Position numbers and translations under genes: made by a program
DNA from: Formosa sp. L2A11
GTDB taxonomy: Bacteria > Bacteroidota > Bacteroidia > Flavobacteriales > Flavobacteriaceae
Length of the DNA: 64,000 bases
Direction: 5' to 3'
Assembly (NCBI RefSeq): GCF_009796865.1
Contig: NZ_CP047028.1
Location: forward strand, 1,674,001 to 1,738,000
Shown: piece by piece, positions 17,948 to 31,345 of the stretch
Numbering within the stretch: the stretch's first letter is position 1
Layout of the letters: the number at the start of each line of letters is the position of its first letter
Notes under the pieces: model-generated
Told to the model about the DNA's origin: nothing
Databases searched by the model: none
The model's input: the letters and a program-made list of their open reading frames with translations, nothing else

Positions 17948-19438
17948 TTATGCTTTAGAGGTTATTGATTTAAAAAACACATAACCAAAACCTAAAAATA
18001 ACATAAGGTGAAACGGAAATAATCCAAAGTCTCCTCCTTGATCTCCAACTATAAATGCGCTATACATACCGAATGCAAAATAAAGTGTAAGTAAGCCTTC
18101 GAAAATGACATTTACAGAGATGTTTTTCTTTATGTATTTGTTGTCTTTCCAGCTGTCTTTTAGGTTGTTAATGTTGAATTTAGGTGTACGAACAAATTCG
18201 CTTCGTTTACCAATGTGTCCTTCTAATACAGCAATAGAATTGTGTAGAGAGAAGCCCATTGCCACGGTAAAAAAGGTGAAAAACATACCTATATATTTGA
18301 TGAAATTTTTAATACCTCCGCCATAAATATTTTTATACATAAACCAATAGCATATAAAGAAAATAACACTACTTACTACAAAGAAACTCATGACGTAGAA
18401 GTATGGTTTTAAATGCGCATATTCGTTTTTAATATACAACATTGGAATACTTAAAACGGCTACTATAAATACATTTAAAAACATGGTACTGTTTAGTAAA
18501 TGTAATACACCGTGAATTTTTGTTTTACCAGAAATATTATCTGATTTTAAAACACGCCAAAGCATTTTTCTGAAGTTTTCTGCACCACCTTTATTCCAAC
18601 GGAATTGTTGCGAGCGTGCGGCACTAATTACCACAGGAAGTTCTGCTGGTGTTTCTACGTTTTCTAAATATTTAAATTTCCAGTTTTTAAGTTGTGCACG
18701 GTAGCTTAAATCTAGGTCTTCTGTAAGTGTGTCTCCTTCCCAGTTTCCTGCGTCTATAATACAGTCTTTACGCCAAACTCCGGCTGTACCGTTAAAATTT
18801 ATAAAGTGTCCTTTACTGTTTCTACCTACTTGTTCTAGCGTAAAATGCGCATCTAAAGCAAAGGCCTGGATACGTGTTAGTAAAGAATATTCGCGGTTTA
18901 TATGTCCCCAACGGGTTTGAACTACACCAATATTTCTGTCTTTAAAATAAGGTAGTGTACGTAATAACCAATCTGTTTGAGGTAAGAAATCTGCATCGAA
19001 AATGGCAATAAATTCTCCTTTTGCTATTTTTAAACCTTCTTTTAAGGCTCCTGCTTTAAATCCGCTACGGTCTGTTCTCGTAATATGTACAATGTCTAAA
19101 CCTGCTGCTTTTAGTTTTTGTACATGTTCGCGTGTGGTTTGAACGGTTTCGTCTGTAGAATCGTCTAAAACTTGAATTTCCAATTTATTTTTTGGATAAT
19201 TCATAGTTGCGATGTTTTCCAACAAACGATCCATAACATACATTTCGTTATAAACAGGTAATTGTATGGTAACATAAGGGACTTCTTTTTCTTTAGAAAG
19301 ATCTAAAGGGGGCAAAGAAGTATCTTTCTTATGAGCAGAAAGATAATTTAACAATAAATTTAACTGTGCTAAAGCATACATGAAAATTAATGCTAAAGAA
19401 GTTGAGTAAATGGCAATTATAATAATTTCTAATATCAT
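17948..19438 (-). CDS. GT2 family processive-type glycosyltransferase (cellulose synthase-like)
   Basis: A 496-residue membrane glycosyltransferase. An N-terminal membrane span (about 5-30) is followed by a cytosolic GT2 domain with the family residues in order: LDDSTDE near 91-97, DAD at 148-150, TED at 239-241 and QQFRW at 277-281, then about four to five C-terminal spans. This is the DDD-QxxRW arrangement of cellulose synthase/CsbB-like enzymes, which use a nucleotide sugar. It is short for cellulose synthase and lacks a PilZ domain, so a glycolipid or beta-glucan/mannan product is more likely. It overlaps the upstream DPM-like gene by 4 nt. Confidence 0.85.
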   Translation of the reverse strand: MILEIIIIAIYSTSLALIFMYALAQLNLLLNYLSAHKKDTSLPPLDLSKEKEVPYVTIQLPVYNEMYVMDRLLENIATMNYPKNKLEIQVLDDSTDETVQTTREHVQKLKAAGLDIVHITRTDRSGFKAGALKEGLKIAKGEFIAIFDADFLPQTDWLLRTLPYFKDRNIGVVQTRWGHINREYSLLTRIQAFALDAHFTLEQVGRNSKGHFINFNGTAGVWRKDCIIDAGNWEGDTLTEDLDLSYRAQLKNWKFKYLENVETPAELPVVISAARSQQFRWNKGGAENFRKMLWRVLKSDNISGKTKIHGVLHLLNSTMFLNVFIVAVLSIPMLYIKNEYAHLKPYFYVMSFFVVSSVIFFICYWFMYKNIYGGGIKNFIKYIGMFFTFFTVAMGFSLHNSIAVLEGHIGKRSEFVRTPKFNINNLKDSWKDNKYIKKNISVNVIFEGLLTLYFAFGMYSAFIVGDQGGDFGLFPFHLMLFLGFGYVFFKSITSKA

Positions 19439-20127
19439 TTTTTAAAGCTATATTTAAAAATCCAATACAGGATTTTCATGCCTGCAAATATAGCACCTTT
19501 TATCGTACCTGAAACTTTTGAAACTCCTATTCTGTTACGATATTTTACAGGGATTTCTCGATAAGAAAAATGTCTTTTTAAAATTTTTAATTGCATTTCT
19601 ACCGTCCAACCATATGTTTTGTCTAACATGTTTACTTCTAGTAGGTTACTGTATTTTATAGCGCGAAAAGGACCTAAATCTGTAAAAGTTGATTTAAAAA
19701 ATAAGCGCATTAATGACGTCGCTAACCAGTTTCCAAACTCTTGAGGAATGGTCATTGAACCTTTTTCACGAAGATTTTTCATACGTGCACCGACAACAAA
19801 ATCGATATTTTCTTCTAGTATAGGTGTAATAAGCTCTGTTAATTGTTCAGGATAATCGCTATAATCTCCATCTAAAAAAACAATAATATCTGGTTTTGTA
19901 TTTAGTTTAGAAATGTAATCCATACCCTTTAAGCAAGCATAGCCATATCCTTTGTTTTTTTCTATTAAAACAGTTGCGCCAGCTTGTTTTGCATTTTCTT
20001 CTGTATTGTCTGTAGAGTTGTTACTTACAACAATAATTTCGTCTACAATATTTGGAATATCGTGTATAACTTTCGAAATAGAATCTGCTTCGTTATACGC
20101 AGGTATAATAACTTTAATTATGGCCAT
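19435..20127 (-). CDS. GT2 family glycosyltransferase, polyprenol-phosphate sugar synthase-like
   Basis: 230 residues, a compact GT-A domain: IIPAYNEADS at the N-terminus, SNNSTDNT, and the metal-binding DGDYSD (DGD at 86-88). It resembles dolichyl-phosphate mannose/glucose synthases without C-terminal membrane spans, and would transfer a sugar from a nucleotide donor to a lipid phosphate. It is the first gene of a two-gene operon with the cellulose-synthase-like enzyme and has a -7 box 24 nt upstream. A partnership with the GT-C enzyme at 4067-5425, which should need a lipid-linked sugar, is inferred. Confidence 0.82.
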   Translation of the reverse strand: MAIIKVIIPAYNEADSISKVIHDIPNIVDEIIVVSNNSTDNTEENAKQAGATVLIEKNKGYGYACLKGMDYISKLNTKPDIIVFLDGDYSDYPEQLTELITPILEENIDFVVGARMKNLREKGSMTIPQEFGNWLATSLMRLFFKSTFTDLGPFRAIKYSNLLEVNMLDKTYGWTVEMQLKILKRHFSYREIPVKYRNRIGVSKVSGTIKGAIFAGMKILYWIFKYSFKK

Positions 20128-21985: not shown

Positions 21986-22687
21986 TTAGTTTTTAACACT
22001 TACATGCTTTAAATAGTAGTTGTAAAGTGTTTCAGGAGAGGTGCCTAGTCTGTATTTTAAATGAATTACAGTATAATGATATTGTAAATAGCAGATGCCT
22101 TTTGTGTGATATCTTCTTGCAGATGTTGTTAGTTGTTTTTGAATAACAGCAAAGTTAGTTGCTTTGTATGCACAATTTATAAAATGATTGTCTTCGTAAA
22201 TTTTATAGTGCTCGTTATAACCGCCAAGCGTTTCGAAAAGTGTTTTTGTAACAAATAAACTTTGGTCGCCACCGCGACATATTCTCCAAGAAAACTGTGT
22301 AAACCAACCCGCTAGTTTTAGCCACCAATGCAAAGAATTAAACGACATTTTAAAGCAACCTGCTTGTGTGTTTGTATTGAGAGTTTCTGTAATATGTTTG
22401 TCGAAGTTTTTAGGCGGATAAGAATCTGCGTGAAGAAAATACAGAATGTTCCCTTTGGCTTGTTTTGCGCCTAAATTCATTTGGATTCCGCGTCCTTTTT
22501 CTGAGTTTATAAGGTTAGCTTCTGTAAATAGTTTGGTTATGTTTTGTGTACCATCTGTACTGCCGCCATCTACAATTATAATTTCTTTAATATTTTTTGA
22601 AGATGAATTTTTTATTAGATATGGAATTAATTCCTGAAGATTCTTTGCTTCATTAAAAACGGGAATTACTATAGAAATTTTACTCAT
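21986..22687 (-). CDS. TIGR04283-type glycosyltransferase (arsenosugar biosynthesis-associated)
   Basis: A 233-residue GT2 glycosyltransferase with IPVFNEAKN at the N-terminus, VDGGSTDGT, FLHADSYPP (metal-binding HAD in place of DxD) and CRGGDQSLFV, the features of the family named TIGR04283 in arsenosugar-type clusters. It is the last gene of the minus-strand operon that contains the ArsS-like radical SAM enzyme, 21 nt after the fatty acid hydroxylase. It could attach the sugar-like product to a carrier; the acceptor is unknown. Family members also occur outside arsenic clusters, so the substrate is inference. Confidence 0.82.
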   Translation of the reverse strand: MSKISIVIPVFNEAKNLQELIPYLIKNSSSKNIKEIIIVDGGSTDGTQNITKLFTEANLINSEKGRGIQMNLGAKQAKGNILYFLHADSYPPKNFDKHITETLNTNTQAGCFKMSFNSLHWWLKLAGWFTQFSWRICRGGDQSLFVTKTLFETLGGYNEHYKIYEDNHFINCAYKATNFAVIQKQLTTSARRYHTKGICYLQYHYTVIHLKYRLGTSPETLYNYYLKHVSVKN

Positions 22688-22708
22688 TTAAATTTTCAGG
22701 ATATAGCT

Positions 22709-23599
22709 TTAATCTTGTTTTCTCTTTAGTGGATAGAGTTCTTGGTCTATAAAATGTTTTGGAAATTTTTCGTCTTCTTCAAAACCTAATTCTATATCTC
22801 TTCCGTTATGCGGAATGTAATCTGTTTTAAATAAATAATCCCAAATACTTAATGTAATCCCGTAATTAGATCCATAAATAGAATTTGGAGGTAATTCTTT
22901 GGCGTGGTGCCAAATGTGCATTTTAGGATTGTTTAAAATATATTTAAAAGGACCGTAGTTCCAGCCCAAATTAGCATGATTTAAATGCCCAACAGCAATG
23001 GAGAAAAAATGAACCAATACAACATCTTGCACGTTAAATCCTCCAATAATAGCAATAGGAAGGTATAATAAAGATTTGTAAAGCACCGGTTCCATCCAAT
23101 GGTAACGTAAGTGTCCTGCAAATCCCATTTCTTTTATAGAATGGTGTACTTTATGAAAATCCCATAGTAAAGGGAAACGGTGTAATAAGCGGTGAGTATT
23201 CCATTGTATAAAATCACTCACTATAAAAAAGATAAATAAACCAACGGCTTTAGGTAATTGGTTTACATTAAATAGTTGAAGATTTTCTAGAGATAATCCG
23301 AAAACAGAAAGGACATCGTTAAATAATTCTGAGGCCGTGTTAGATAATGCTATAAGAACAATTAAATTAAGAATAAAAAAATTGAAAAACATATAGAATA
23401 TGTCTTGCCAAAAATCTTTTCTAAAAATAGACTGATTTTTACGCCAAGGAAATGCAATCTCTAAACTCCAAACCACTAATGATATAGTAATTAAGCCATA
23501 GAAATAATTATCCCAATGGTTTATAGATATTAACTCGTATTTTAAATACCTCCAGTAACCAGAGTACGAGTCTTGTATTATATTAATGTATTTATCCAT
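22709..23599 (-). CDS. Sterol desaturase/fatty acid hydroxylase family protein
   Basis: A 296-residue membrane di-iron enzyme. Its histidine clusters are all present: HRLLH and FHKVHHS around residues 130-150, HLNH, and HIWHH further on, between four or so hydrophobic segments. Family members hydroxylate or desaturate lipids. I chose the ATG at 23599 (MDKYINIIQ), since the only earlier start is a TTG that would run through a perfect hairpin. It lies between the phosphorylase and the TIGR04283 glycosyltransferase in the ArsS operon, so its substrate might be a lipid linked to that pathway; this is speculative, and a role in hydroxy-lipid formation unrelated to arsenic is equally open. Confidence 0.87.
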   Translation of the reverse strand: MDKYINIIQDSYSGYWRYLKYELISINHWDNYFYGLITISLVVWSLEIAFPWRKNQSIFRKDFWQDIFYMFFNFFILNLIVLIALSNTASELFNDVLSVFGLSLENLQLFNVNQLPKAVGLFIFFIVSDFIQWNTHRLLHRFPLLWDFHKVHHSIKEMGFAGHLRYHWMEPVLYKSLLYLPIAIIGGFNVQDVVLVHFFSIAVGHLNHANLGWNYGPFKYILNNPKMHIWHHAKELPPNSIYGSNYGITLSIWDYLFKTDYIPHNGRDIELGFEEDEKFPKHFIDQELYPLKRKQD

Positions 23600-23605
23600 A
23601 ATAAA

Positions 23606-23646
23606 ACATCTTGTTTTCTGAGTTGTAGACGTTAAAAACAAGATGT
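23606..23646 (-). terminator. Perfect 12-bp hairpin between PNP and hydroxylase genes
   Basis: ACATCTTGTTTT (23606-23617) and AAAACAAGATGT (23635-23646) are perfect inverted arms. Read on the minus strand the stem is followed by TTTATTATGG, whose ATG is the start of the hydroxylase gene. It could be a partial terminator that lowers expression of the last two genes, or a structure that controls access to the start codon. Confidence 0.65.
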
Positions 23647-23678
23647 CATTACGTTTTTAAAATCTTTTTAAAGTAAAA

Positions 23679-24491
23679 TTATAGAGATTTTATAAGATCT
23701 TTAAAAAGTGTTATCATTTTAGGTTCGGCTTTTTCTGCCATAGCTATAATGTCTTTAATGTCTACAGGGTATAAATTTTCAGGATCACCTTTATCTGTAA
23801 TTACAGAAACAGCAGCAACTTTTAAACTTAAGTGATTGGCAACAATAATTTCAGGAACCGTACTCATACCAACAGCATCTACGCCTAAAAGTTTAAGCAT
23901 TCTATATTCTGCACGTGTTTCTAATTGTGGGCCTAACATGCTTGCATAAACACCTTCGTGTAAAGTAAAGTTGTGTGCTTTTGCGATCTCTTTAAATTTG
24001 GTATTTATTTCTTTATCGTAAGGCGCACTCATGTCTGCAAAACGTTCTCCTAGTTTAGATACACCTTTAAAAGCTAAAGGAGAACCGCCTAGTAAATTAA
24101 TATGGTCGTCTATTAACATTAAGTCTCCTTTTTCGTAATCTAAATTTACAGCTCCAGAAGCGTTAGATACTAAAAGCGTATGTATTCCTAATTGGTTCAT
24201 AATACGAACTGGGTAGGTAATGTCTTGTAAAGTGTAGCCTTCGTATAAATGAAAACGGCCTTGCATAACCACTACTTTTTTACCTTCTAATTCGCCATAA
24301 ATTAATTTCCCCTTATGGAACTCTACAGTTGCTGTTGGGAAATATGGAATTTGGTTGTAGCTCACTTCGTGAATTATAGATATTTCATCTAATAATTTTC
24401 CTAATCCTGTACCTAGAATAATTCCAATTTCAGGTTTATCGAAGCCTTTATTTTGTAAATATTCTGTGGTTTCGTTAATGTATTTAATCAT
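23679..24491 (-). CDS. Purine nucleoside phosphorylase, trimeric PNP/MTAP family
   Basis: 270 residues with the trimeric family motifs: phosphate loop GIILGTGLGKL, GRFHLYEGY, the purine-binding glutamate in GPQLETRAEYRM, and VSVITDKG. The last places Asp (about D233) where hypoxanthine/guanine-specific enzymes have Asn; Asp there is linked to 6-aminopurine (adenine) recognition. In the ArsS operon it could release adenine from the 5'-deoxyadenosyl product of the radical SAM enzyme. That is an inference, as this Asp may be common in Bacteroidota PNPs used for ordinary salvage. The start overlaps the upstream TIGR04282 gene by 8 nt, and a hairpin follows the stop. Confidence 0.88.
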   Translation of the reverse strand: MIKYINETTEYLQNKGFDKPEIGIILGTGLGKLLDEISIIHEVSYNQIPYFPTATVEFHKGKLIYGELEGKKVVVMQGRFHLYEGYTLQDITYPVRIMNQLGIHTLLVSNASGAVNLDYEKGDLMLIDDHINLLGGSPLAFKGVSKLGERFADMSAPYDKEINTKFKEIAKAHNFTLHEGVYASMLGPQLETRAEYRMLKLLGVDAVGMSTVPEIIVANHLSLKVAAVSVITDKGDPENLYPVDIKDIIAMAEKAEPKMITLFKDLIKSL

Positions 24492-25161
24492 GATGTATAC
24501 TATATTTTTTAAATTGAGGATAATCTTTTATATCTTCAAATGTATCGATATCATTTAATTCTTCAAGTAAATAAACCGATTTGTTAGTTAAGTTTTTTAG
24601 AGATTCTTCTAGAACAGTTGCGGTTCCCCAAGCTTTATTTTTAAACAATTCGCTATGTAACGTTTTCATTCCTAGTAAGTAATATCCGCCATCTTTTGCT
24701 GGACCAATAACAACATCGTTATGTTCTAGTTGGTTAAAAGCATCGTCAATAATTTCTGAAGTAAGATCTAAAATATCACTTCCAATTATAACAACTTTCT
24801 GATAATTATTCTGAAACAAATCTTTGAAAGCATGATTCATACGTTCGCCTAAATCTTCGCCTTGTTGCAGTTTTTTTCTGAAATTATTATCGTCCCAAGT
24901 ATCATTTTTGTGAATATGTTCAGAATAAAATACAAAATTATCAGCTTTTACACTTTCAGAAATCTTAGCCGTATGCTGTAAAAGTGTCCTGTAAATTGCT
25001 AAAGCATTTTCATCTCCAATAGTTTTGGCTAAACGGGTTTTGCATTTTCCCAATTCTGGGTTTCTTGCAAATACAATAAGTGCTTTTTTAGATGTAGGAA
25101 AATGAAATGTTGCAATCGCTTCATCATCATTTTCTGTGTCATTCGAGGTTAAAAATCCCAT
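24484..25161 (-). CDS. TIGR04282-type glycosyltransferase (DUF2064; arsenosugar biosynthesis-associated)
   Basis: 225 residues with a nucleotidyl/glycosyltransferase-A-like fold: LIVFARNPELGKCKTRLAK near residue 30 (nucleotide-binding loop), VIIGSDILDL carrying the central acidic residue, and IGPAKDGGYYLLGMK, which are signatures of the DUF2064/TIGR04282 family. It is predicted to be a sugar transferase partner of TIGR04283 in arsenosugar-type clusters. It lies 40 nt after the ArsS-like gene and overlaps the phosphorylase by 8 nt. The N-terminal ~25 residues (acidic, Asn/Asp-rich) precede the core, so a later start is possible. Confidence 0.84.
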   Translation of the reverse strand: MGFLTSNDTENDDEAIATFHFPTSKKALIVFARNPELGKCKTRLAKTIGDENALAIYRTLLQHTAKISESVKADNFVFYSEHIHKNDTWDDNNFRKKLQQGEDLGERMNHAFKDLFQNNYQKVVIIGSDILDLTSEIIDDAFNQLEHNDVVIGPAKDGGYYLLGMKTLHSELFKNKAWGTATVLEESLKNLTNKSVYLLEELNDIDTFEDIKDYPQFKKYSIHHD

Positions 25162-25201
25162 GTTTTAAAAGTAATATTAAATAAAATTGAATGTATAAAA
25201 A

Positions 25202-26257
25202 TTATGCGACATTGCCTTGGCAACTGCTTCCTGCTCCAGCCGTACAGCCATAACAGTGTTGTGAGGTTACAATTTGCCTACCGTTTAGTAGGGTTTCGTT
25301 GTAATCTGAAATATGTTTTATTTTACTATTTACAGGTAATTCTAGCATTTGGTTAAAATCGCAATCGTATAAAAAGCCATCCCAACTTATAGATAACGTA
25401 TTTGTACACATAACACTTTTTGTGGCCTGCGGGTTGTATGCTTCAACGAGCGCATACATATAATCTTCGTAATTTTCTGAAGCAATTAAATAATCTAAAA
25501 ATCGACTAATAGGTAAATTTGTAATTGCAAATAAATTATGGAATTGAATACCAAAATCATCTAAAAGAGCATGTTTAAAATCTTTTTCCATCGCAGATTG
25601 ATTTGCGGGTAAAAATGCTCCTGATGGATTGTAAACTAAATCTAGTTTTAAATTGCTTCCTGGCATACCGTATCCAACAGCATTTAAGTCTTTTAAAGCC
25701 TGAATAGATTGGTTAAATACGCCTTTACCACGTTGTTTATCTGTTTTGCCTTGTGTCCAATGTGGCATAGAGCTTACCACATGTATGTTGTGTTTTTTAA
25801 AAAAATCTGGTAAGTCGTGATACTTTTTATTGGCACGAATAATAGTTAGATTAGAGCGTACAATAAAATCTTTAATTCCTGCTTTAGAAGCTTCTTCTAC
25901 AAACCATCTAAAATTTGGATTCATTTCTGGTGCGCCACCAGTTAAATCTAGCGTGTGTGCTTTTGTGGTTTTTATAACTTCAAGACATTGTTGCATGGTG
26001 TCTTTTGTCATAATTTCCTTGCGATCTGGACCTGCGTCTACATGGCAATGTTCGCAGACTTGGTTACACATATAGCCTACATTAATTTGAAGAACTTCTA
26101 GTGAGCCAGCAGTCAATGTATCTATACCTGTTTCTGCTAATTTTGTTTTAAAAGTAGGTAATTCACCATTTTTAAATATTCCATTGGCTAAAAAGTCTAA
26201 TTGTTCTTGACTTTGAGCTAATTTATTATTGCGTTTATGTAATGATTTTTGAGTCAT
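25202..26257 (-). CDS. arsS: ArsS-like radical SAM/Cys-rich protein (arsenosugar biosynthesis type)
   Basis: 351 residues. The radical SAM cluster motif is CNQVCEHC (C64, C68, C71), followed by the GGE-like LTGGAPEMN and the DUF3641-type C-terminal half, ending in CYGCTAGAGSSCQGNVA (Cys at about 335, 338 and 346). This layout matches the rSAM/Cys-rich family (TIGR04167) to which ArsS belongs; ArsS joins the 5'-deoxyadenosyl group of SAM to dimethylarsinate. Many relatives use selenocysteine in the C-terminal motif; here the frame has only Cys and no internal TGA. No arsM is found in the window, so the substrate may differ or come from elsewhere. It lies 83 nt after the AhpD-like gene. Confidence 0.85.
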   Translation of the reverse strand: MTQKSLHKRNNKLAQSQEQLDFLANGIFKNGELPTFKTKLAETGIDTLTAGSLEVLQINVGYMCNQVCEHCHVDAGPDRKEIMTKDTMQQCLEVIKTTKAHTLDLTGGAPEMNPNFRWFVEEASKAGIKDFIVRSNLTIIRANKKYHDLPDFFKKHNIHVVSSMPHWTQGKTDKQRGKGVFNQSIQALKDLNAVGYGMPGSNLKLDLVYNPSGAFLPANQSAMEKDFKHALLDDFGIQFHNLFAITNLPISRFLDYLIASENYEDYMYALVEAYNPQATKSVMCTNTLSISWDGFLYDCDFNQMLELPVNSKIKHISDYNETLLNGRQIVTSQHCYGCTAGAGSSCQGNVA

Positions 26258-26340
26258 ATTATTTTTCTGAATGATAAAGTTGTTGAGATCTTAAATTTGA
26301 TTTTAAGATGTCTGTTCTAGTCATGTTTTTTTTATAAAAA

Positions 26341-26676
26341 CTACATTTCTAATTTATTTACTTTATTCATCATTTGTACACCGTGTACTAGAGAAGCTCC
26401 GCCTCGAATGGCTGCCGAAACATGTAAGGCTTCCATCATTTCTTCTTTAGTTATGCCGCGTTGTAGTGCATCTCCTGTATAAGCATCAATGCAATACGGA
26501 CATTGTACGGTATGAGAAACAGCTAATGCTATTAACGATTTTTCACGTTCAGATAAAGCGCCTGCTTCAAATACTTTGCCATAGTAATCAAAGAATTTTT
26601 CTCCTAATTCTTCATTCCAATCAGATATTTTACTAAATTTTTTTAAGTCGGCTGGATCGTAATATGTTTTTTGCAT
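26341..26676 (-). CDS. AhpD/carboxymuconolactone decarboxylase-like protein (arsenosugar-associated peroxidase-like)
   Basis: A 111-residue all-helical protein with the redox pair in HTVQCPYCIDAY (C59 and C62), the hallmark of AhpD-like alkylhydroperoxidase family members. Small proteins of this type are regular companions of ArsS genes and are named arsenosugar biosynthesis-associated peroxidase-like proteins. A redox role on arsenic or thiols is plausible but not shown. It is the first gene of the minus-strand operon and faces the Na+/H+ antiporter gene across a 166-nt region containing a perfect palindrome. Confidence 0.85.
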   Translation of the reverse strand: MQKTYYDPADLKKFSKISDWNEELGEKFFDYYGKVFEAGALSEREKSLIALAVSHTVQCPYCIDAYTGDALQRGITKEEMMEALHVSAAIRGGASLVHGVQMMNKVNKLEM

Positions 26677-29165: not shown

Positions 29166-29816
29166 ATGAAGTTTGAATTGAAGGACTGTCTTTCAGTTAT
29201 AATATTAATTCTAAGTGTAATCTTATTTCAATCTCAAGCTATGTCAACGACATTACTATCAGAACATCATACGGTTCCAGAATCGATTAAAAAAGAAGCT
29301 AAAGAAGCATTTTCTTTCTATCCAGAACTCGAAAATGTAGACATAGATATTCGTTTTAAAAAAGAAATTAAGAAATCTACTATGCAAGCTCAGCCTCAGT
29401 TTTGGAGTTTATTAAAAGGGAAAAAGGGGAGACGCTATGTGATTTTTATAAGTAAGAAAATTAAAATTACAGACTCAGAATTTTCAACAAAACACATTCC
29501 TTTTAATGTTATTGTGGGCTGGTTGGGGCATGAATTAGGACATGTTTGCGACTATCAAAACCGGTCGTCTTTTGGGCTGGTTAAATTCGGTTTTAAATAT
29601 TTGTTTTCAGAAAAGTTTATAAAGCAAGCCGAGCGTAATGCAGATTCTTTCGCTATTATTCATGGTATGGAAGATTATATTATAGTGACTAAAAACTTTA
29701 TTTTAGATCATGCTAATATTCCAGAAGATTATAAAAATAGGATTAAACGCTTTTATTTGTCTCCAGAAGAAATTATGATGTTAATAGATGAGCGGGATAA
29801 AAAAAGCGACAACTAA
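29166..29816 (+). CDS. Putative zinc metallopeptidase-like protein (HELGH motif)
   Basis: Not assigned to a named family. About 216 residues from the ATG at 29166 (MKFELKDCLSV), one base after the MscS stop; an ATG at 29142 inside the channel gene is the alternative. An N-terminal hydrophobic segment (about residues 8-25) looks like a signal peptide or anchor. The sequence GWLGHELGHVCDY contains the zinc-binding HExxH motif, and AERNADSFAI about 45 residues later offers the ExxxD type third ligand of gluzincins. A periplasmic or membrane-attached peptidase role is therefore likely. The channel partner suggests a cell-envelope or osmotic function. The 3' end overlaps the convergent GH3 gene by 4 nt. 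Confidence 0.7.
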   Translation: MKFELKDCLSVIILILSVILFQSQAMSTTLLSEHHTVPESIKKEAKEAFSFYPELENVDIDIRFKKEIKKSTMQAQPQFWSLLKGKKGRRYVIFISKKIKITDSEFSTKHIPFNVIVGWLGHELGHVCDYQNRSSFGLVKFGFKYLFSEKFIKQAERNADSFAIIHGMEDYIIVTKNFILDHANIPEDYKNRIKRFYLSPEEIMMLIDERDKKSDN

Positions 29817-31345
29817 ATAGTCTCTTCGCTTTTAACGAAATCTTCCCAAACTTTAAATTTTTCTTCGTTCATAACGCGTTCCATTTTTACTTGTCCTCCT
29901 TTTTTCTTGTTTCTTGCATTCCAATTATAGAAGGTTTCCGGATTGGTTAGTTTTACTTTTAGTCCTCTTAAAGCTTTAGATCGTGCAACGGCATAATTTT
30001 TATTCACATCTTTTAAAAAGTTGTCTATAGCTTCTGCAATTTTAGTAGTGTCTTGCGTTGTGTTTTCTGTGCCTAAATACCAGCAATGGTAAAAACCATC
30101 TTCAAATTCTTTGGCGCAAATAGTAAATTCTGGAATTTTCATCCCAAATTTTTCTTCTAAATACATCATTGCATCATTCATTTTATTAACAGAAAGTTGA
30201 GAGCCAACTGTGTTTAGAAAGAATTTTGTGCGTCCTGTAATTTTAATCTCAGCACGATTAACATCTGTAAACATTATAGTATCTCCAATAATATAACGCC
30301 AAGCACCAGAAACTGTACTAATAATAAGCACATAGTCTGTGTCTGGTTTTACATTTGCTAAAGTAATAGAAGGTGCATCTGCTGTAAGTGAGCCGTCTTC
30401 TAAAATGTATTCAGGTTTAAAGGGGACGAATTCAAAATAAATACCATTATCTGTAACCAATTGCATAGATGTGGTTTCTGGTCTGGCTTGAAAGGCAATA
30501 AAGCCTTCAGAAGCTAAATAGGTGTCTATAATAGTTATCGGGTGTTCTAGGAGTGCATTAAAGCTTTTTTTATAAGGTTGAAAAGCGATTCCACCAGTAG
30601 TATATACTTGTAAGTTAGGCCAGATTTCATGAATGTTTTTTGCGTTGTGATATGCAATCACCTTTTTTAACATCAGTTCTAACCATGAAGGAATACCACT
30701 TAAAGCACCAATATCCCATTTTTTTGCATTTTCGGCTATTTTCTGAATACGTTCGTCCCAATCGTCAATTTTAGAAATTTGTTCTCCAGGTTTATAATAA
30801 CCACGAAACCAAAACGGAATATTACTTGCACTTATGCCACTAATTTCACCTTCGTAATGGTCTTCTTTTTCAATTAAATCTGTAGAGCTTCCTAGCATCA
30901 TAATTTCTTTTTCGAAGAAATCTGGAGGTAAATCGAATGCGTTTAGCGCAAAAACTTGTTGAATTCCTGAGTTACGTATAGACTCTATCATGTCTTTGGT
31001 TACAGGAATACGTTTGCTTGTTTTTCCTGTAGTTCCAGAACTTAATGCAAAATAATCTGGGTTTCCTGGCCATGTAATGTCTTTTTCGTTATTATGTAGT
31101 CGGTACCACCATTCTGTATTTATCTTGTTGTAATCAAAATAAGGAATGGTTTTAGAAAAAGCAGATTGGTAATCTTTATGGTTTAAAAGGGTTTCAAAAT
31201 TATAGTGTTTTCCAAAAGCAGTGTGTTTTGCGGTCTCTAAAAGAAACTTTAGAACTTCTTTCTGGTTCTCTACAGGATTAGACTCTGGAGTAAGTGTGTC
31301 TTTAATTTGGATGACGCCTTTAATAATGTTACCAATAATAGCCAT
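29813..31345 (-). CDS. GH3 (auxin-responsive) family acyl-adenylating protein
   Basis: A 510-residue protein of the GH3 domain family, ATP-dependent enzymes that join acids to amino acids in plants; bacterial members are mostly uncharacterised. The nucleotide-binding loop is SSGTTGKTSKRIPVT near residue 105, YLASEGFIAF lies in the middle, and the hinge to the C-terminal domain is GAWRYIIGDTIMFTD, with ITGRTKFFLN after it. The length is close to plant GH3 proteins. The substrate is unknown. It is a single-gene unit: tRNA-Phe and its terminator lie just upstream, and the convergent zincin-like gene meets it at the 3' end. Confidence 0.85.
   Translation of the reverse strand: MAIIGNIIKGVIQIKDTLTPESNPVENQKEVLKFLLETAKHTAFGKHYNFETLLNHKDYQSAFSKTIPYFDYNKINTEWWYRLHNNEKDITWPGNPDYFALSSGTTGKTSKRIPVTKDMIESIRNSGIQQVFALNAFDLPPDFFEKEIMMLGSSTDLIEKEDHYEGEISGISASNIPFWFRGYYKPGEQISKIDDWDERIQKIAENAKKWDIGALSGIPSWLELMLKKVIAYHNAKNIHEIWPNLQVYTTGGIAFQPYKKSFNALLEHPITIIDTYLASEGFIAFQARPETTSMQLVTDNGIYFEFVPFKPEYILEDGSLTADAPSITLANVKPDTDYVLIISTVSGAWRYIIGDTIMFTDVNRAEIKITGRTKFFLNTVGSQLSVNKMNDAMMYLEEKFGMKIPEFTICAKEFEDGFYHCWYLGTENTTQDTTKIAEAIDNFLKDVNKNYAVARSKALRGLKVKLTNPETFYNWNARNKKKGGQVKMERVMNEEKFKVWEDFVKSEETI

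Follow-up and report, generated by a model that had tools for sequence, protein, structure and literature searches.

In Synechocystis, arsenosugar synthesis is reported to begin with reactions catalysed by ArsM and ArsS (PMC8552651). The adenosylation of arsenic is attributed to a radical S-adenosylmethionine (SAM) enzyme in that source and in PMC12159101, the latter also reporting bacterial arsenosugars from cyanobacteria. The genome of Formosa sp. L2A11 (Flavobacteriaceae), a single contig of 3,783,741 bases, encodes both of these first-step enzymes, as in the Synechocystis pathway. The analysis reported here concerns a stretch of 64,000 nucleotides of this genome (NZ_CP047028.1, positions 1,674,001 to 1,738,000; hereafter the window), in which ArsS is encoded within a compact operon of six open reading frames (ORFs) at positions 21986-26676. 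We propose, with a probability of roughly 0.7, that this is an arsenosugar operon from which the arsenosugar-type ArsM (NF038099) has been lost, and that its role has been taken by a distant canonical ArsM linked to an ArsR-type regulator. This proposition is built directly on gene content, family assignments, the genomic ArsM, co-occurrence and conservation among relatives, and the predicted fold of one operon protein (TIGR04282); the loss of NF038099 itself is what we infer from them.

The operon and a distant canonical arsM

The six ORFs all lie on the minus strand and are tightly packed, with gaps in operon order of 83, 40, -8 (an overlap), 37 and 21 bases, and the curated cut-off is exceeded by every one of the six proteins on scoring against NCBIfam and Pfam profiles. 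The first encodes an arsenosugar-associated AhpD-like protein of 111 residues (26341..26676; TIGR04169, 189 bits against a cut-off of 120), followed by the radical SAM enzyme ArsS of 351 residues (25202..26257; TIGR04167, 440 bits, cut-off 300), in whose translation the CxxxCxxC motif, here CNQVCEHC, can be spotted by eye. Next come a TIGR04282 protein (DUF2064) of 225 residues with a predicted nucleotidyltransferase-like fold (24484..25161; 227 bits, cut-off 134) and a purine nucleoside phosphorylase (PNP) of 270 residues (23679..24491; NF006054, 337 bits, cut-off 218). A membrane hydroxylase that falls in PF04116 (fatty acid hydroxylase superfamily), with 296 residues counted from its ATG (22709..23599; 92 bits, cut-off 31), and a TIGR04283 family-2 glycosyltransferase of 233 residues (21986..22687; 236 bits, cut-off 182) complete the series. 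The hydroxylase ORF begins at a TTG at 23641, and the alignment of relatives begins at the ATG at 23599. Both the gene order given by an earlier sequence-only reading and its assignment to an ArsS-type operon are borne out.

The arrangement was compared with 100 ArsS loci of relatives, which with the window make a sample of 101, a gene being counted at 100 bits or more. These loci were hand-picked from the best-scoring listed ArsS matches, with six carriers of canonical ArsM (G038, G080, G121, G125, G133 and G261) put in on purpose, so that the resulting fractions cannot be taken as unbiased. AhpD-like genes are found at 92 loci, TIGR04282 at 79, PNP at 74, TIGR04283 at 53 and the hydroxylase at 36, a clustering with ArsS that is far beyond chance. 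Of the 65 loci with NF038099, 60 show the gene directly 3' of PNP, so that its expected site in the window is the junction between PNP and the start codon of the hydroxylase (23600..23678, no strand assigned). The window operon lacks NF038099 as well as rhodanese (at 64 loci) and DUF547 (at 59), all common in relatives, and in the congener G245, no ArsS over cut-off, no ArsM of either type (E <= 1e-60) and no hydroxylase (E <= 1e-70) were found; such a picture would be expected if the operon were a relic or silent in this genome, a suggestion that we hold to be highly improbable with all six frames open and every family model over its cut-off.

Seven matches to the canonical arsenite methyltransferase model NF008823 are found genome-wide at E <= 10, none of them inside the window (C1:1674001-1738000), and NF038099 has no match in the genome at E <= 1e-60. 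One canonical arsM is over its cut-off (367 bits against 263; C1:2967329-2968132), on the same chromosome and about 1.27 Mb away from the operon, and this match rules out a genome without any ArsM. The gap in the pathway that had been noted from the window alone therefore stands for the window and closes for the genome, the gene having been found elsewhere, as the earlier reader proposed to look for it. The idea of a pathway without ArsM is not supported, because the genome has a canonical arsM and because relatives that lose the operon ArsM often have another possible source of arsenic. The distant arsM lies in an ars locus, where it is divergent from the gene of an ArsR/SmtB-family regulator; after the regulator come an ArsP_1 permease, ArsF-family and ArsG-family genes and, as read from translations, thioredoxin-like and OsmC-like genes. 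Among 17 loci (the window genome and 16 others, likewise read from translations), an ArsR-like ORF is directly beside canonical ArsM in 11.

Candidate arsenic sources in Flavobacteriaceae

The distribution of the two ArsM types was surveyed in a single draw of 299 genomes from this family, the named loci placing these relatives in Flavobacteriaceae. ArsS is over cut-off in 215 genomes, canonical ArsM in 27 (G104 and G148 reach E <= 1e-60 below the cut-off) and NF038099 in 168, of which 167 also carry ArsS; the lone genome without ArsS over cut-off, G292, shows a partial match to ArsS (1.5e-50). The 215 genomes with ArsS divide into 163 with NF038099 only, 17 with canonical ArsM only, four with both and 31 with neither. 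Of the 48 ArsS genomes without NF038099, 17 have canonical ArsM, versus 4 of the 167 with NF038099 (Fisher p = 2e-9, ancestry ignored), and from this difference, together with the arsM of the Formosa genome itself, it is concluded that the arsenosugar pathway is most likely fed in trans. Loci with PNP and the hydroxylase and without NF038099 number seven in the sample, and six of them come from canonical-ArsM genomes, these six including the window and four deliberately chosen loci. The congener G014, with ArsS, canonical ArsM and the hydroxylase present and NF038099 absent, matches the window genome in this respect. In favour of the proposal, too, an ArsS tree places the window ArsS nearest to two sequences (L045, L040) from NF038099 genomes.

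Several results weigh against the proposed replacement. Over all 299 genomes, ArsS is not significantly commoner among those with canonical ArsM (21 of 27) than among the others (194 of 272; p = 0.65); canonical ArsM is thereby rejected as a general partner of ArsS, and the substitution pattern inside ArsS genomes alone is supported. By both models, neither ArsM type is present in 31 of the 215 ArsS genomes. In an ancestry-aware test with five supported pairs, an average of 2.3 pairs link canonical ArsM alone to NF038099 loss. The test makes use of this ArsS tree of 111 rows, a quick tree with some long branches, on which the presence of NF038099 changes at least five times on supported branches (17 times on the best tree). 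When canonical ArsM or an import cassette is accepted as the substitute, it goes with NF038099 loss in an average of 4.5 of the 5 supported independent pairs (median p 0.06), the cassette alone doing so in an average of 2.4. Allowing for ancestry, the link between NF038099 loss and a substitute source is underpowered and suggestive.

The import cassette was recognised in genomes with neither ArsM, 18 of the 31 having been read at the ArsS locus (8 from the general sample and 10 fetched specially). A SusD-like gene, a sodium:solute symporter gene or both are present at the ArsS locus in 12 of these 18, compared with 5 of 93 loci from genomes with an ArsM (p = 2e-8, ancestry ignored). In most of the 12 loci with such inserted genes (L102, L112-L114, L145, L146, L148-L152 and L154), the cassette consists of a SusC-like receptor, a SusD-like lipoprotein, a symporter and a calcineurin-like phosphoesterase. 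A further set of named loci overlaps the first in part, some contigs being identical in length; among its 54 loci that have both ArsS and PNP the division is similar, with NF038099 only in 38, the symporter only in 7, both in 1 and neither in 8 (p = 2e-4). We read the cassette as a putative importer of organoarsenic compounds, its predicted substrate, that would stand in for methylation. Where loci with neither ArsM nor cassette were examined, a glycosyltransferase termed GT2a is beside the operon in five of six. The window has two family-2 glycosyltransferases, GT2a and GT2b, downstream of the operon and in the same direction (17948-20127), and homologues of GT2a are found at 8 of the 101 ArsS loci, the window counted.

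The same figures bear on the suggestion, already raised in the sequence-only reading, that ArsS here adenosylates a substrate other than arsenic, the distant arsM being an unrelated detoxification gene. Such a reading would agree with the family-wide independence of canonical ArsM from ArsS, with the 31 ArsS genomes that have neither ArsM, and with two loci (L189, L226) in which TIGR04282, PNP, the hydroxylase and TIGR04283 are kept without ArsS, beside another radical SAM protein. It is opposed by NF038099, an arsenite methyltransferase relative named for the pathway, which sits inside the operon and is found in ArsS genomes in all but one case; by the score of the window ArsS, 140 bits above its cut-off; and by an ArsM-superfamily methyltransferase that precedes the genes in L189 and L226 too. 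We consider it improbable, weakened as it is by the genomic arsM and the substitute sources, with the 31 genomes leaving some room for it.

The two loci, L226:1381-12576 and L189:4997-12718, share the order RHOD-TIGR04282-PNP-hydroxylase-DUF547-TIGR04283, with no ArsS or AhpD in the locus. Besides the methyltransferase (198 bits to NF008823 in L226, cut-off 263), these genes are preceded by a radical SAM protein of 316 residues that is below every NCBIfam cut-off, and an ABC transporter lies upstream in L226. This layout could possibly represent a sister pathway using a different radical SAM enzyme.

The membrane hydroxylase

In 27 relatives the hydroxylase shows 52-77% identity to that of the window, and ten histidines (H136, H140, H149, H152, H153, H205, H208, H228, H231 and H232) are invariant in the 28 rows; over cut-off and with its histidine motifs intact, it passes as a member of PF04116. 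Its sole NCBIfam match is the ornithine lipid hydroxylase OlsE (NF052566), at 84 bits versus a cut-off of 475, and membership of that family is rejected on this score. The predicted model, with a mean predicted local distance difference test (pLDDT) value of 64.5, is too low in confidence for structure comparison, and no useful relative of the hydroxylase or of ArsS came out of a PDB search by sequence.

Conservation of the hydroxylase beside ArsS, on which the earlier reader made its role depend, is confirmed in 36 of the 101 ArsS loci, of which two (L057, L091) carry it off the operon and in another clade; DUF547 is 3' of it on the same strand in 28 of the 36. A hydroxylase search of GTDB contigs led to a similar picture: among the best 80 loci of 519 relatives, 72 have ArsS, TIGR04282, PNP, NF038099 or AhpD within 10 kb, and 54 have ArsS itself within that distance. 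Species of Winogradskyella, Algibacter and Bizionia are among those in which operon genes accompany the hydroxylase. In these best 80, DUF547 is the next gene in 68, followed by TIGR04283 on the same strand in 63; in the window, no DUF547 gene lies between the hydroxylase and TIGR04283. On a tree of 64 rows, the operon copies cluster together with few exceptions (93/85 support), separately from the unlinked homologues, which fall into two groups; the window copy lacks a well-supported group of its own.

In the family draw, the hydroxylase is matched at E <= 1e-70 in 218 of the 299 genomes. With E <= 1e-140 taken as the operon type, a threshold that we set at a thin part of the score histogram, 86 genomes have the operon-type enzyme, all of them with ArsS, and 132 have homologues of other types, 111 with ArsS and 21 without. 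In a draw of 247 genomes from the phylum, ArsS is found in 104 and the operon-type hydroxylase in six, all Flavobacteriaceae, of which two (G432, G444) have no ArsS over cut-off; the rule that it always accompanies ArsS holds for 86 of 86 genomes in the family draw and is broken by these two. The hydroxylase is therefore a conserved, optional and family-restricted tailoring gene, not a core step, which tracks ArsS closely and imperfectly.

As to what this enzyme does, we tentatively suggest from its family and gene context that it may act on an acceptor lipid or on a lipid-bound product. A sharper form of the proposed pathway, differing from it in the last step only, would have the hydroxylase make or modify a lipid hydroxyl that TIGR04283 then glycosylates, so that hydroxylase, DUF547 and TIGR04283 complete a membrane-bound arsenosugar lipid. 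The single-strand succession of these three genes in 63 of the best 80 GTDB loci, the complete association with ArsS in the family draw, the intact histidine motifs and the nature of the closest NCBIfam model, a lipid hydroxylase despite its low score, are consistent with such a step. The missing DUF547 of the window and the lower frequency of the hydroxylase at ArsS loci (36 versus 53 for TIGR04283) are not, and this form can be held as a possibility that falls short of even odds.

It could also be supposed that the hydroxylase is a general membrane-lipid enzyme carried in the operon without serving the arsenic product, which we regard as nearly as probable as the lipid step just described. 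The non-operon-type homologues in 132 genomes, 21 of them without ArsS, are consistent with such a general role, as are G432 and G444 and the scarcity of second copies (E <= 1e-70), found in 4 of the 86 operon-type genomes among at most 8 candidates scored in each, as if one were enough. In line with it, too, none of 20 hand-picked loci of unlinked homologues has ArsS within four genes. Against it, the operon copies keep their position and are mostly one clade, distinct from the two unlinked ones. The unlinked homologues are moreover commoner in genomes with ArsS (111 of 129 versus 21 of 84), a difference that shared ancestry could possibly cause.

Of these 20 unlinked homologues, one (L264) comes after TIGR04282 and PNP, and five have an MBL-fold protein beside them. 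Eight (L251, L252, L256, L258, L259, L262, L263 and L268) are beside genes read from their translations as a putative sulfite dehydrogenase and a cytochrome c, a hint that the unlinked enzymes may have a sulfur-related lipid or substrate. A further lipid-type gene, perhaps unrelated, is located 3 kb from the operon (29813-31345) and encodes a GH3-domain protein akin to the lyso-ornithine lipid synthetase OlsH, below its cut-off (290 against 620).

Predicted route and comparison with known systems

The predicted model of the TIGR04282 protein has a pLDDT of 89.7, and its top PDB match is 3cgx (E 1.5e-21), followed by nucleotidyltransferases including 2i5e, 7p97 and 6bwg; glycosyltransferases such as 2y4m rank below these. 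The protein also scores 38 bits to the CofC family PF01983 (cut-off 22). Although its annotation reads glycosyltransferase, the model suggests a nucleotidyltransferase by fold, and the protein would in that case provide the sugar-activation step. For PNP, an Asn at the T-D motif is typical of 6-oxopurine specificity. The T-D motif is present in 74 of 89 rows (mostly LTDE; ITDK in the window), the other 15 having another stretch or no match; because several PNPs in the PDB likewise carry Asp at this position, no conclusion on specificity is drawn.

In the proposed route, ArsM would convert As(III) to a dimethylarsenical, to which ArsS would attach a 5'-deoxyadenosyl group. For the subsequent steps and their order, which we infer, PNP may exchange adenine for phosphate to give an arseno-ribose 1-phosphate, TIGR04282, as judged from its fold, may convert this into a nucleoside diphosphate sugar, and TIGR04283 may pass the activated sugar to an acceptor. 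The membrane hydroxylase would then tailor either this acceptor or what results from the transfer, the likeliest target being a lipid. It can further be speculated that the operon is a plug-in pathway with three interchangeable sources of methylated arsenic, namely the ArsM of the operon, an ArsM linked to ArsR and acting in trans, and an organoarsenic importer made of SusC/SusD, a sodium symporter and a phosphoesterase, and that hydroxylase, DUF547 and TIGR04283 complete a bacterial arsenolipid. We consider this wider scheme unlikely as a whole; if it were true, heterotrophic bacteria would make and recycle arsenosugars and arsenolipids.

Two variations of the layout were observed among the relatives. 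At seven loci (L051, L058, L063, L084, L096, L115 and L116, paired with L157-L161, L163 and L164), ArsS stands apart, mostly with AhpD and often with a weak TIGR04282-like gene and a TetR-like gene, and TIGR04282, PNP, NF038099 and TIGR04283 form a second locus in the same genome. A gene read from its translation as PiT phosphate-transporter-like is sometimes inserted in the operon 3' of NF038099 (L187, L194, L207, L231; L037, L044, L077, L080, L098).

Within one heterotrophic family, ArsS is over cut-off in 215 of 299 sampled genomes, matched by NF038099 in 167. It can now be tested how methylated arsenic is supplied when the operon ArsM is gone, and whether the membrane hydroxylase makes the product lipid-bound. 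In an open PMC collection that lacks most subscription papers, neither the operon layout nor the hydroxylase nor the exchange of ArsM was found among the matches listed. The families themselves are established: of the five that NCBIfam names for arsenosugars (TIGR04167, TIGR04169, TIGR04282, TIGR04283 and NF038099), four are over cut-off in the operon and NF038099 is absent (E <= 1e-60), and this kind of operon is therefore one already recognised by the NCBI curators. The hydroxylase carries no such name, and with OlsE it has the PF04116 superfamily in common without belonging to that family. The TIGR04282 protein shares its predicted fold with CofC/FbiD-type guanylyltransferases (PF01983; 7p97, 6bwg) and is below the cut-off of the F420_cofC family TIGR03552 (43 bits against 105). 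Compared by description with Synechocystis, the Formosa system differs in that ArsS belongs to an operon with AhpD-like, PNP, TIGR04282, TIGR04283 and hydroxylase genes, and the canonical ArsM is encoded 1.27 Mb away.

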